Of a DNA stretch of 64,000 nucleotides, positions 29,902 through 34,944 are shown piece after piece. Each line of letters begins with the position of its first letter. The first letter of the stretch is position 1. Made by a program: the position numbers and the translations under genes. Source of the stretch: Sphingomonas sp. (GTDB lineage: Bacteria > Pseudomonadota > Alphaproteobacteria > Sphingomonadales > Sphingomonadaceae); assembly GCF_025362505.1 (NCBI RefSeq), contig NZ_JANYGG010000067.1:1-64000 (forward strand). The letters are read 5' to 3'. The notes beneath the pieces are model-generated. The model saw only the letters and a list, made by a program, of their open reading frames with translations, searched no databases and was not told where the DNA came from.

Positions 29902-30573
29902 TCAGGCGATCTCGCCGGGTACGGCGTCACGTTCGCGGCTGAGTTCGTCGACCTGGCTCATGATCGTCTGAAGCGCGGTGCGGTTGGGGTCGGTGATGTG
30001 CTGTCGGCGCGACGGCAGTTTGCCCCCAGTCAGCAGCGCCTCCAGAGCGACCCGTCCGCGCGCGACGCGGCTCTTGATCGTGCCGACCGCGCAGCCGCAG
30101 ATTTCGGCTGCTTCTTCATAGGCGAACCCGCCCGCGCCGACCAGGATCAGCGCCTCGCGCTGCGGCTGGGGCAAGTGAAGCAACGCGCGCTGCATGTCGC
30201 CAAGCTCGATATGCTTGTCCTGGCTGGCCGGCGCGGCAAGGATCTTGGCTGCGGTGATATCGTCCCATTCACCCTTGAACCGCGCGCGGCGCATCTGGCT
30301 CAGGAACAGGTTGCGCAGGATGATGAAAGTCCAGGCGCGCATGTTGGTGCCGGCTTGGAACCGCTTGCGCGCCGCCCAAGCTTTCAGAAGTGTTTCCTGT
30401 ACGAGGTCGTCGGCGAGATCGCGGCTGCCCGAGAGTGAACGGCCGAAGGCGCGCAAGTGCGGGATGACCGCGCCGAGCTGGTCCTTGAACTCGTTATCGG
30501 GCAGCGGCACCGGCTCGGGGCGCGGCGGCTCGACATAATCGTCATCGTCTTCGTCGCTGGTCACAATCCCCAC
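29902..30573 (-). CDS. ecfG: EcfG-family RNA polymerase sigma factor (general stress response)
   Basis: FGRSLSGSRDLADDLVQETLLKAWAARKRFQAGTNMRAWTFIILRNLFLSQMRRARF; genomic context with PhyR and NepR. Confidence 0.93.
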   Translation of the reverse strand: MGIVTSDEDDDDYVEPPRPEPVPLPDNEFKDQLGAVIPHLRAFGRSLSGSRDLADDLVQETLLKAWAARKRFQAGTNMRAWTFIILRNLFLSQMRRARFKGEWDDITAAKILAAPASQDKHIELGDMQRALLHLPQPQREALILVGAGGFAYEEAAEICGCAVGTIKSRVARGRVALEALLTGGKLPSRRQHITDPNRTALQTIMSQVDELSRERDAVPGEIA

Positions 30574-30824: not shown

Positions 30825-30849
30825 AACGAAGCTTGGACGTCCATGTTCC
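30825..30849 (-). promoter_or_regulatory. EcfG promoter GGAAC-N16-CGTT
   Basis: Plus strand AACGAAGCTTGGACGTCCATGTTCC; perfect match; ~42 bp upstream of the 45-aa ORF. Confidence 0.8.
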
Positions 30850-30990: not shown

Positions 30991-31791
30991 CTAATCCGCC
31001 GGAATGGTCGCCGCGTCGAAGAACAGCGCCTGACTGATCGCCGCCTTGACCGTCGACCGCTGGAACGGCTTGGTGATCAGGAACGTCGGCTCGGGACGGG
31101 TGCCGGTCAACAGCCGCTCGGGGAAGGCGGTGATGAAGATCACCGGCACCGAGAATTCGGCAAGGATGTCCTTGACCGCGTCGATGCCGCTGGAATCGTC
31201 GGCCAGTTGGATGTCGGCGAGGACAAGGCCCGGCGGATGCTGGCGCGCCTGCGCGATCGCCTCGTCGCGGGTGACAGCGACGCCAGTGACGTTATGGCCA
31301 AGGTCGCGGACGATCGTTTCGATATCCATCGCGATGATCGGTTCATCCTCGATGATCAACACGTTGGCGAGCGTCTGGCGCTCGATCTCGGTCAGCGCCT
31401 CAGTGACGAGGCTGTCGACGTCGTCGGGGCCGCAACCGATCAGGAAGGCGGTGTCTTCGGTCGAAAAGCCCTCCAGGCTGGTGAGGAGGAGCGCCTGACG
31501 CGACAGCGGCGTGATCCGCGACAGGCGCGCGCGGGCGATCCCCTCGGGATTGTTGTAGCCGTCGCCGGGCTCGTCGCCCTCTTCGATATTGGCGCTCGAC
31601 CAGATCGCGTGGAAGGTGCGGTAGAGGCCGAGGCGCGGATCGACGTCGCGCGGGAAATCCTCGGGGCTGGCGACGATTGCCTCCAGCGTGGCGCGAACGA
31701 ACGCGTCGCCGTGCGCCTGGCTGCCGGTCAGGGCGCGCGCATAGCGGCGCAGGAACGGAAGGTGTGGAGCAAGGTCTTGACCAAGCGACAT
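30991..31791 (-). CDS. phyR: PhyR: sigma-factor-like domain plus receiver domain
   Basis: SFTED-like sigma region 4 plus NVLIIEDEPIIAMDIETIVRDLGH...LVLADIQLADDSSGIDAV. Confidence 0.95.
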   Translation of the reverse strand: MSLGQDLAPHLPFLRRYARALTGSQAHGDAFVRATLEAIVASPEDFPRDVDPRLGLYRTFHAIWSSANIEEGDEPGDGYNNPEGIARARLSRITPLSRQALLLTSLEGFSTEDTAFLIGCGPDDVDSLVTEALTEIERQTLANVLIIEDEPIIAMDIETIVRDLGHNVTGVAVTRDEAIAQARQHPPGLVLADIQLADDSSGIDAVKDILAEFSVPVIFITAFPERLLTGTRPEPTFLITKPFQRSTVKAAISQALFFDAATIPAD

Positions 31792-32058: not shown

Positions 32059-32346
32059 ATGGAGCGCGCGCGCGAGCGTCGCCCGCCCGAGGGGGACGAG
32101 AGGTTGAGTGGCAGCAACGAAGCCGATCCGCAAAGTGGCGCCGATCCGCAAATCCGGCGCGCTGGCGACGCGGGTGCCGGTGAAGATAAAAGCCAGGGCG
32201 GCGAAAAGGGGACCAAGGTGGCACCGAACAAGAAACCGCCACGCCGACCAACGGACGTCGGTCGCGCGCTGCGGTCGGTCTACGACAACACGCTGCGCGA
32301 GGATATTCCGGCCGATCTCAAGGATCTGCTTGGCCGGCTCGGCTAG
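32059..32346 (+). CDS. nepR: Anti-sigma factor NepR
   Basis: VGRALRSVYDNTLREDIPADLKDLLGRLG; divergent from phyR. Confidence 0.9.
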   Translation: MERARERRPPEGDERLSGSNEADPQSGADPQIRRAGDAGAGEDKSQGGEKGTKVAPNKKPPRRPTDVGRALRSVYDNTLREDIPADLKDLLGRLG

Positions 32347-32382: not shown

Positions 32383-33909
32383 ATGGCCGCATCCTTCGCC
32401 CGGTTGCCGACCGCTGCCAAGCTGTTCCTGCTCATATCGCTGGCTTTGCTGCCGATCGGGCTGGCGATGATCTGGACGGCGCGGACCGGAATCGATCGCG
32501 CCAACGCCGCCCTCGACCAGCGCGCCAAGGAACAGGATCGGGCCGCCTCGCGCGCGATCGAAAGCCTGATTGCGCGCAACGCGCTTGCCCTGCGAATCGC
32601 GGCGAGTAGCGCGCTCGCCACTCCGGACGCCAATGACTGCGAGGAAGCACGGCGGTCGCTGGCGATCGCGCCGGCGGTATCGCGCACCTTTTCAATTGAG
32701 GGACCCGACGGCAGCGAGCATTGCAACACGCCGGAGTTTCGCGCTCCCAATGGCGCGCGCTTCGCACCACCGGGTGGAATCGCGCTGTGGATCGACCCAG
32801 TCGGAAAGGCGCTGTTTGTCCGGGTCGGCGTGGTTGACGGGATGGCGACTAACCGCATTTCCTTTGCCGAGGTCGCCAGCGCGGCGCGTGACGTCGCGAC
32901 CGATATAGTCGGTCTGCAGGTAGATGACGGGATCAACAGCACCGCGATCATCGGCGAGCAGAGCAACGAGCGCATCCGCCGGGCCCATGCGACCATGCAC
33001 GACATCGCGAACGGCCAGCTTTCGGTGCGCGTTACCGTGCCGACGCAGCGTTTGTCGGCTGGCGAATGGCTGATCCTGCTGCTGCCGGTGATCATGTGGG
33101 TCGTCGCCGCACTGATCAGCTGGCTGCTGGTAACGCGGCTGCTGATCCGCCCGCTTCGCCGGCTCGAGCGGGCGGTGGCGACCTATGACCCGAGTGCGGG
33201 CGGTTTTACCCTGCCGCGCGGAATCGGACCCGCGATCGAGATTGAGAGCCTAGGCCAGGCGTTCGCCCGCTCGGTCGAACGGATCGAAAGCTCGGAGCGC
33301 GAGATGGGCGAGGCGCTCGAGGGTCAGCGGCGGCTGGTCCGCGAGGTCCACCACCGGGTCAAGAACAACTTGCAGGTCGTTGCGTCGCTGCTCAGCATCC
33401 ACGGCCGCAACGTCACCGGTCCCGAGGGCAAGTCGGCGTATGCGGCGATTGCGCGGCGGGTCGATGCGCTCGCCGTCGTCCACCGCAATCATTTCGCCGA
33501 GGGTGAGGACAATCGCGGGATCGCGCTTCGCTCGCTGCTGACCGAATTGTCCGCCGGGCTGCGCGGATCGGCACCGGAGAGCGCGCGGCAGACCTCGATC
33601 ATGCTCGACGTCGATAGTGCCGCGACGACCCAGGATGTGGCGGTCGCCGCTGCTTTCCTTGTCACCGAGGTGGTCGAATTTTCGATGCTGCGGCTGGCCG
33701 CCGCGCCGATCGAGATCACGCTGAGGCGGACAAGCGAGCTTACCGCGCGGCTATCGGTTGAAAGCTCGGCGCTGACTGAAGCGGACGCTGGCGACAAGGA
33801 CAAGGTGCAGTTCGAGCGGGTCATCACCGGGCTTGCTCGCCAGCTGCGTTCGACGCTCGATTTGCGGCTCGGCCGGATGAGCGTCGACTTGCCGGTTTTC
33901 CCCGGCTGA
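32383..33909 (+). CDS. phyP: HisKA_2-type sensor histidine kinase-like protein with degenerate ATPase region (PhyP-like)
   Basis: REVHHRVKNNLQVVASLLSIHGR; ATPase N-box replaced by LVTEVVEFSMLRLA and no clear G-box. Confidence 0.8.
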   Translation: MAASFARLPTAAKLFLLISLALLPIGLAMIWTARTGIDRANAALDQRAKEQDRAASRAIESLIARNALALRIAASSALATPDANDCEEARRSLAIAPAVSRTFSIEGPDGSEHCNTPEFRAPNGARFAPPGGIALWIDPVGKALFVRVGVVDGMATNRISFAEVASAARDVATDIVGLQVDDGINSTAIIGEQSNERIRRAHATMHDIANGQLSVRVTVPTQRLSAGEWLILLLPVIMWVVAALISWLLVTRLLIRPLRRLERAVATYDPSAGGFTLPRGIGPAIEIESLGQAFARSVERIESSEREMGEALEGQRRLVREVHHRVKNNLQVVASLLSIHGRNVTGPEGKSAYAAIARRVDALAVVHRNHFAEGEDNRGIALRSLLTELSAGLRGSAPESARQTSIMLDVDSAATTQDVAVAAAFLVTEVVEFSMLRLAAAPIEITLRRTSELTARLSVESSALTEADAGDKDKVQFERVITGLARQLRSTLDLRLGRMSVDLPVFPG

Positions 33910-33947: not shown

Positions 33948-33973
33948 GGAACCGGGACCGAATTAAGGACGTT
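33948..33973 (+). promoter_or_regulatory. EcfG promoter GGAAC-N17-CGTT
   Basis: GGAACCGGGACCGAATTAAGGACGTT; consensus hexamers and allowed spacing. Confidence 0.75.
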
Positions 33974-33979
33974 TAAGAT

Positions 33980-34115
33980 CTCGGATAGCGAATTTTGCCC
34001 CCCCGCTCTCGCTATCCGATCAAATGGGCCCGGAACCGCCAACCCTCCCCCCCCCGGTAGTGGTTCCGGGCCCAAAATTTACCAGAGCCCGGTCGAAAGA
34101 TCGGGCTCTTTTTTT
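33980..34115 (+). ncRNA. Candidate GSR-controlled small RNA with two C-rich hairpin loops and an intrinsic terminator
   Basis: HP1 TCGGATAGCGA/TCGCTATCCGA (loop with C7), HP2 TGGGCCCGGAACC/GGTTCCGGGCCCA (loop with C9), HP3 AGAGCCCG/CGGGCTCT followed by T7. Confidence 0.7.
34084..34115 (+). terminator. Rho-independent terminator
   Basis: AGAGCCCG-gtcgaaagat-CGGGCTCT then T7. Confidence 0.9.
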
Positions 34116-34140: not shown

Positions 34141-34944
34141 CTAGTCGCCGGGAGGGATGGCCGGCAATTCGACCGCGTCGGCAGTGACCTCGGGGACCGC
34201 CTTGCGGGCGGCGCGCCAGTGGGTGATGCGGATCGCCACGATCGCGAATTCATACAGGGCGTAAAGCGGCACCGCGAGCAGCAGCATCGACACCGCGTCG
34301 GGCGGGGTCAGCACCGCCGACACCGCCAGCACGATCACCACCGCATAGCGCCGCGACTTGCTGAGCTGCTCGCGGGTGATGAGCCCGGCGCGCTCGAGGA
34401 TCATCAGCAGGATCGGCAGCAGGAAGGCGACGCCGAAACCGAACAGGAAGCGGGTGACGAAAGTCAGATAATTGCCGACCCCGGGCAGCGCCTCCTGTTG
34501 GACCCCGCCGATATTGCCCTGATAGCTGAGCAGGTAATGCAGCGCGAACGGCATGGTGACGAAGTAAGCGAACGCCGCGCCGCCGGTGAAGAAGAACGGG
34601 GTCATCAGCAGGAACGGCAGGAAGGCGCGCTTTTCCTTGGCGTACATGCCGGGCGCGACGAACCGCCAGATCTGGGTGGCGAGGACCGGAAAGCTGATCA
34701 TCAGCGCGGCGAAGAAGGCGACCCTCACCTCGGCGAAAAAGGCCTCGAAAATGTCGGTGTAGATGAGCTTGCCCTGCCCCGCGCGAAGCAGTGGCTGGAC
34801 GAGGATGGCGAAGATTGGCCTGGCAATTATGAGGCACAGGCCGAACGCGACGACCAGCGTCGCGACGCACCATAGCAGGCGGCGGCGAAGCTCGATCAGA
34901 TGGTCGATCAACGGCGCCTTGCTGTCGTCGAGGTCGCTGATCAT
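34141..34944 (-). CDS. tatC: Twin-arginine translocase subunit TatC
   Basis: APLIDHLIELRRRLLWC, FVAPGMYAKEKRAFLPFLL. Confidence 0.97.
   Translation of the reverse strand: MISDLDDSKAPLIDHLIELRRRLLWCVATLVVAFGLCLIIARPIFAILVQPLLRAGQGKLIYTDIFEAFFAEVRVAFFAALMISFPVLATQIWRFVAPGMYAKEKRAFLPFLLMTPFFFTGGAAFAYFVTMPFALHYLLSYQGNIGGVQQEALPGVGNYLTFVTRFLFGFGVAFLLPILLMILERAGLITREQLSKSRRYAVVIVLAVSAVLTPPDAVSMLLLAVPLYALYEFAIVAIRITHWRAARKAVPEVTADAVELPAIPPGD

Follow-up and report, generated by a model that had tools for sequence, protein, structure and literature searches.

A candidate EcfG-controlled small RNA with C-rich loops beside the general stress response genes of Sphingomonadaceae

Introduction

Among models of the alphaproteobacterial general stress response (GSR), sphingomonads have an important place. 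In the 64,000-nt stretch of Sphingomonas DNA analysed here (the window), the gap between phyP and the convergent tatC is occupied by an EcfG-type promoter motif followed by two hairpins with C-rich loops and a terminator (Table 1), and this raises the question of whether the feature is an RNA gene in its own right and what its product would do. An original prediction had read it as an EcfG-driven small RNA (sRNA), and comparative genomics supports this reading well through covariation, promoter conservation and synteny. On these comparisons, we put the probability at roughly 0.7 that the feature is a stand-alone non-coding sRNA gene of the GSR that would be transcribed by EcfG, and whose C loops would most likely pair with mRNAs.

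Table 1. Features of the RNA gene and the surrounding stress-response locus (window coordinates).
Feature	Position	Strand	Basis and remarks
ecfG	29902-30573	-	Pfam Sigma70_r2 and r4_2; ECF sigma factor, expected reader of the promoter
phyR	30991-31791	-	Pfam PhyR_sigma2, PhyR_sigma-like, Response_reg
ORF with nepR	32059-32346	+	Pfam NepR domain at C-terminus
phyP (phyT), HWE/HisKA_2 histidine kinase	32383-33909	+	Pfam; conserved upstream neighbour
EcfG-type promoter, GGAAC-N17-CGTT	33948-33973	+	Read directly; conserved upstream of family members
Predicted sRNA, ~136 nt	33980-34115	+	Fold z, covariance match; predicted start ~7 nt after CGTT
Hairpin 1 (HP1), 11-bp stem, loop with GCCCCCCCG	33981-34019	+	Sequence, alignment, covariation; most conserved element
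Hairpin 2 (HP2), 13-bp outer stem and further pairs, loop CCCTCCCCCCCCC	34025-34074	+	Sequence, fold, covariation
Intrinsic terminator with T7	34084-34115	+	Sequence and mechanical terminator detection; hairpin part 34084-34109
tatC	34141-34944	-	Pfam TatC; convergent, downstream neighbour

Structure of the predicted RNA

On re-reading of the sequence, the original description of the promoter, both stems, the loops and the terminator proved correct in every coordinate given. GGAAC (33948-33952) and CGTT (33970-33973) are separated by a 17-nt spacer, and no sigma70-like site was found in the window region of the RNA. In stem 1, TCGGATAGCGA (33981-33991) pairs with TCGCTATCCGA (34009-34019) at 11 of 11 positions around a loop with a run of seven C, and in stem 2 TGGGCCCGGAACC (34025-34037) pairs with GGTTCCGGGCCCA (34062-34074) at 13 of 13, with CCCTCCCCCCCCC within the loop. 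The RNA strand folds with -74.1 kcal/mol (z = -10.05), and none of 200 dinucleotide shuffles was equally stable; the opposite strand folds less well (z = -4.7). Elsewhere in the locus, nepR probably starts further downstream than the ORF that contains it, and a GGAAC-N16-CGTT site at 30825-30849 on the minus strand, about 250 nt upstream of ecfG, is a possible EcfG promoter for ecfG autoregulation.

Distribution and covariation

When 301 Sphingomonadaceae genomes were searched at the DNA level, the strong matches were mostly restricted to the two hairpins (query positions 34-133). From 32 sequences, aligned without reference to structure and including that of the window, we built a covariance model (R1) that spans both hairpins and matches the window at 33977-34091 with 115.6 bits, the window sequence being part of the model. 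Homologues were found in 108 of the 301 genomes, from 38 genera, at E<1e-6 and in 139 at E<=1; the E-values are rough, and the sampled relatives are not independent, so that such percentages are not counts of events. Across the class, a sample of 289 genomes yielded no confident member outside Sphingomonadaceae, its two confident matches both belonging to that family. The weak matches outside the family were taken as chance: none of the 14 neighbours PhyP, PhyR, EcfG or TatC, and the EcfG promoter was absent in all five that were inspected. The RNA was not found in viral contigs.

Within Sphingomonadaceae, two groups of matches were kept out of the family, namely L150-L152, R1 matches that have no EcfG promoter, and L153-L156, which are C-loop terminators located elsewhere. 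The three hairpins L153, L154 and L155, from three genomes, are terminator-like, with the form GGCCCGGAA...CTCCCCC...TTCCGGGCC and no EcfG promoter, and two of them come after a reading frame that ends in LVGKI-stop.

The conservation of the hairpins that had been predicted held, and it extended to covariation. In the structure-free alignment of 32 sequences, 16 of the 28 pairs showed changes on both sides; none of 500 shuffles reached this score, and sliding the partners destroyed the pairing. Among 91 model matches, compensatory changes were present in all 28 pairs, again with 0 of 500 shuffles as good, and the sliding control dropped to 34-42% paired. Because the structure guided this larger alignment and so biases it in its own favour, the structure-free result is the cleaner test.

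The covarying pairs also bear on whether the strand encodes a small protein, with an ATG at the base of hairpin 2 as its start. In the window this frame is open for 283 aa, and the ATG occurs in 32 family members, but that is only 32 of 105, the ORF lengths are scattered from 10 to 283 codons, and changes in C-run length shift the frame. We therefore regard a coding function as having a next to negligible chance, in agreement with the original view that no plausible coding sequence uses this strand.

A conserved EcfG-type promoter

Taken alone, the promoter motif is at chance level in the window (2 matches against 1.34 expected), and over the genome it is rarer than its reversed control (16 against 42) rather than enriched. 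Its significance therefore comes from its conserved, fixed position upstream of the hairpins and not from the single match. Conservation of the promoter in relatives had been named as a check, and GGAA[CT]-N16/17-NGTT indeed lies just upstream in 103 of the 105 members, with CGTT in 76, GGTT in 19, TGTT in 5 and AGTT in 3, and with a spacer of 16 nt in 90 and 17 nt in 13. The distance from the end of the -10 element to hairpin 1 is near-constant, being exactly 3 nt before the start of the covariance model in 86 members. As background, 13806 further 62-nt windows were taken from these loci, and GGAA[CT]-N16/17-[CG]GTT occurred in 15 of them (~0.1%); this pattern differs from that used for the members, of which 95/105 count when the [CG]GTT ending is applied. 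The set of 105 leaves out L150-L156, matches without other family features, and since L150-L152 were excluded partly because they have no promoter, the fairer, exclusion-free figure is 100/112, obtained with a slightly different pattern. In S. melonis Fr1 the EcfG motif derived from transcriptomes is GGAAC-N17-20-GTT (PMC6599016); as a sequence pattern, it covers the -10 variants of the family promoters.

Position in related genomes

Synteny with phyP-tatC was likewise borne out in most relatives, with phyP/phyR and/or tatC adjoining the RNA gene in 95 of the 105 members and one further member (L130) lost at a contig end. The remaining nine copies are unlinked to phyP or tatC, and all have the promoter: six in genus g2, one in G163, and second copies in G227 and G013.

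This arrangement allows the hairpins to be read as a terminator or 3' UTR structure of phyP (and of the convergent tatC) that has no independent RNA function. The feature comes right after phyP and before the convergent tatC, and a run of at least four T is often found 3' of hairpin 2 (64/105 members); in many relatives the T-run follows hairpin 2 directly and replaces the separate terminator. In a terminator, however, both a fixed-spacing EcfG promoter and an invariant HP1 C-loop would be superfluous, and the nine unlinked copies with promoters argue that the RNA is not just a phyP 3' UTR or a shared terminator. Nor did the comparative data give any evidence of mere readthrough from phyP, the outcome that had been put forward as a refutation. 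We consider the terminator reading quite improbable.

Among 30 sampled genomes of the family that lack this RNA, PhyR was found in 27, which means that across the family as a whole the GSR can do without it. A recognisable PhyP was found in only 3, so that the RNA tracks the PhyP-bearing lineages. In the three genomes with phyP but no R1 match, no equivalent RNA was found downstream of it, and the surroundings of phyR in the RNA-less genomes held no convincing look-alike, the GGAAC sites there mostly preceding phyR itself.

C-rich loops and the search for targets

The best-conserved part of the RNA is the HP1 loop, with GCCCCCCCGCTC in 62 of the 105 members and a C-run of 6-7 in 94; the 3' part of HP1, TGCCCCCCCGCTCTCGCT, is invariant in the 32 model sequences except for two with an extra C. 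The HP2 loop is C/T-rich and variable in length (C-run mostly 5-13), and it sits above covarying stems. CCTCC is present in HP2 of 52/105 members and in HP1 of 8/105. The C-runs have a mean predicted unpaired probability of 0.88 in HP1 and 0.97 in HP2. The same layout is found in sRNAs whose pairing partners are G-rich or Shine-Dalgarno sequences, and by analogy with those RNAs we propose that this one most likely acts by pairing with mRNAs through its C loops; it probably tunes mRNAs with G-rich start regions during stress.

In a search for such mRNAs, G6-N4-12-ATG was counted 80 times against 20 for the reversed control, a control that ignores codon bias. Among six genomes of the genus, no convincing recurrent target with a G-tract (G6-7) before the ATG emerged, and one shared G-tract (L192/L247) may have its origin in glycine codons of the upstream gene. 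That no conserved mRNA target was found would also suit an EcfG-driven RNA acting through a C-rich single-strand binding protein, or as a sponge for another RNA, instead of by pairing with mRNAs. The length of the HP2 C-run varies while its C-rich character stays, as would suit a composition-specific binder, but GsrN and NfeR1, which have the same architecture, pair with G-rich or Shine-Dalgarno mRNA sequences (PMC5869019, PMC10746234), and we think the protein or sponge reading unlikely. A similarly small chance is given to a broad translational brake, in which the two C-rich loops would occupy G-rich ribosome-binding sites on many mRNAs simultaneously and EcfG activation would lower the translation of growth genes by way of one RNA.

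Comparison with known RNAs

No Rfam family reached its cut-off in a search with curated thresholds. The closest was ar14 (alpha-r14, RF02344), at 32.7 bits where the cut-off demands 58.8, with two relatives scoring 38.3 and 31.5, and a search of the RNA's own genome with ar14 gave no match. We found no description of the RNA in the open-access literature, and the main text of the S. melonis Fr1 EcfG regulon paper makes no mention of non-coding RNAs (PMC6599016). The RNA is thus a new family of a functional kind that is already known.

It would work most like GsrN of Caulobacter crescentus, an EcfG-controlled sRNA whose C-rich loop pairs with the katG leader at a G-tract (PMC5869019). Both would be controlled by an EcfG-type GSR sigma factor (here judged by promoter sequence, in 103/105), both lie near the GSR locus (usually so in Caulobacteraceae relatives of GsrN, and in 95/105 members here), and the exposed C-rich 5' loop of GsrN has its counterpart in the HP1 C-run, with its average unpaired probability of 0.88. 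They differ in that the RNA described here has two C-rich hairpins and is placed after phyP, and in range: BLASTn matches to GsrN are limited to Caulobacteraceae (PMC5869019), whereas this RNA is confined to Sphingomonadaceae, as judged with R1 in 289 class genomes. The analogy to GsrN that had been claimed is therefore supported, as a resemblance in promoter, locus and loop rather than a demonstrated homology in sequence. The link to the GSR locus is less exceptional than the original prediction implied, for EcfG-controlled sRNAs with C-rich loops near this locus have been described in Caulobacteraceae and predicted in Rhizobiales (PMC5869019). The putative Rhizobiaceae GSR sRNAs share an EcfG site and a C-rich loop near ecfG-nepR-phyR (PMC5869019, Figure 9); they were predicted from transcriptome data and position, and are compared here by description only.

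The alpha-r14/NfeR1 and "cuckoo" RNAs (RF02344; PMC10746234, PMC3927594) resemble the RNA in their successive hairpins, pyrimidine-rich anti-Shine-Dalgarno-like loops and intrinsic terminator. Their loops each carry CCUCCUCCC, whereas those described here are mostly homopolymeric C. NfeR1, an RNA responsive to nitrogen status that pairs with ntrB through its anti-SD loops (PMC10746234), is transcribed from a sigma70 promoter, in contrast to the conserved EcfG-type site found here.

Proposed role in the stress response

From these comparisons we infer how the RNA would be transcribed and depend on EcfG, which mRNAs it would act on and in which direction. Under stress, PhyR captures NepR, and the EcfG thus freed would transcribe the gene from its GGAAC-N17-CGTT promoter. 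The ~136-nt product would fold into two stable hairpins with single-stranded C-runs, plus the terminator, and its C-rich loops would most likely pair with G-rich stretches at or near the ribosome-binding sites, or in the 5' leaders, of several mRNAs. Such pairing would block translation or alter mRNA stability, and EcfG, an activator, would thereby gain a means of indirect repression, or of activation such as GsrN exerts on katG.

As far as its main text goes, the S. melonis EcfG regulon study covered protein genes only (PMC6599016), and an RNA branch of the response, conserved and encoded at the GSR locus itself, could account for indirect and negative effects of EcfG. Erythrobacter litoralis, a sphingomonadalean, was reported to have no apparent gsrN-like gene (PMC5869019); the RNA would show that EcfG-controlled RNAs with C-rich loops recur in a lineage without a previously reported GsrN-like gene. 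Many sphingomonads have a conserved, unannotated candidate sRNA gene, with its own stress-sigma promoter, beside the GSR master switch.

Variation in copies and neighbouring genes

In genus g2 (L134, L139, L141-L143 and L149) the RNA lies away from phyP and tatC in all six sampled genomes, and its HP1 stem has been rewritten while the EcfG-like promoter and the C loops are kept. The unlinked second copies in G227 (L145) and G013 (L147), each with an EcfG promoter, suggest paralogous RNAs in some species. A gene for an entericidin EcnA/B-type lipoprotein usually stands between the sRNA and tatC (77/105 relatives); the window is without it, and there the sRNA almost touches tatC. In S. parapaucimobilis YK209 the order is ecfG, phyR, nepR, phyP, the RNA (unannotated), entericidin and tatC, and the entericidin gene (L260:5220-5354) is preceded by a GGAAC-N16-CATT site. 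The YK209 GSR locus is located, together with tatABC and scpAB, on NZ_CP155750.1, an 853-kb replicon labelled as a plasmid, which suggests that this replicon is a chromid or a mislabelled piece of the chromosome.
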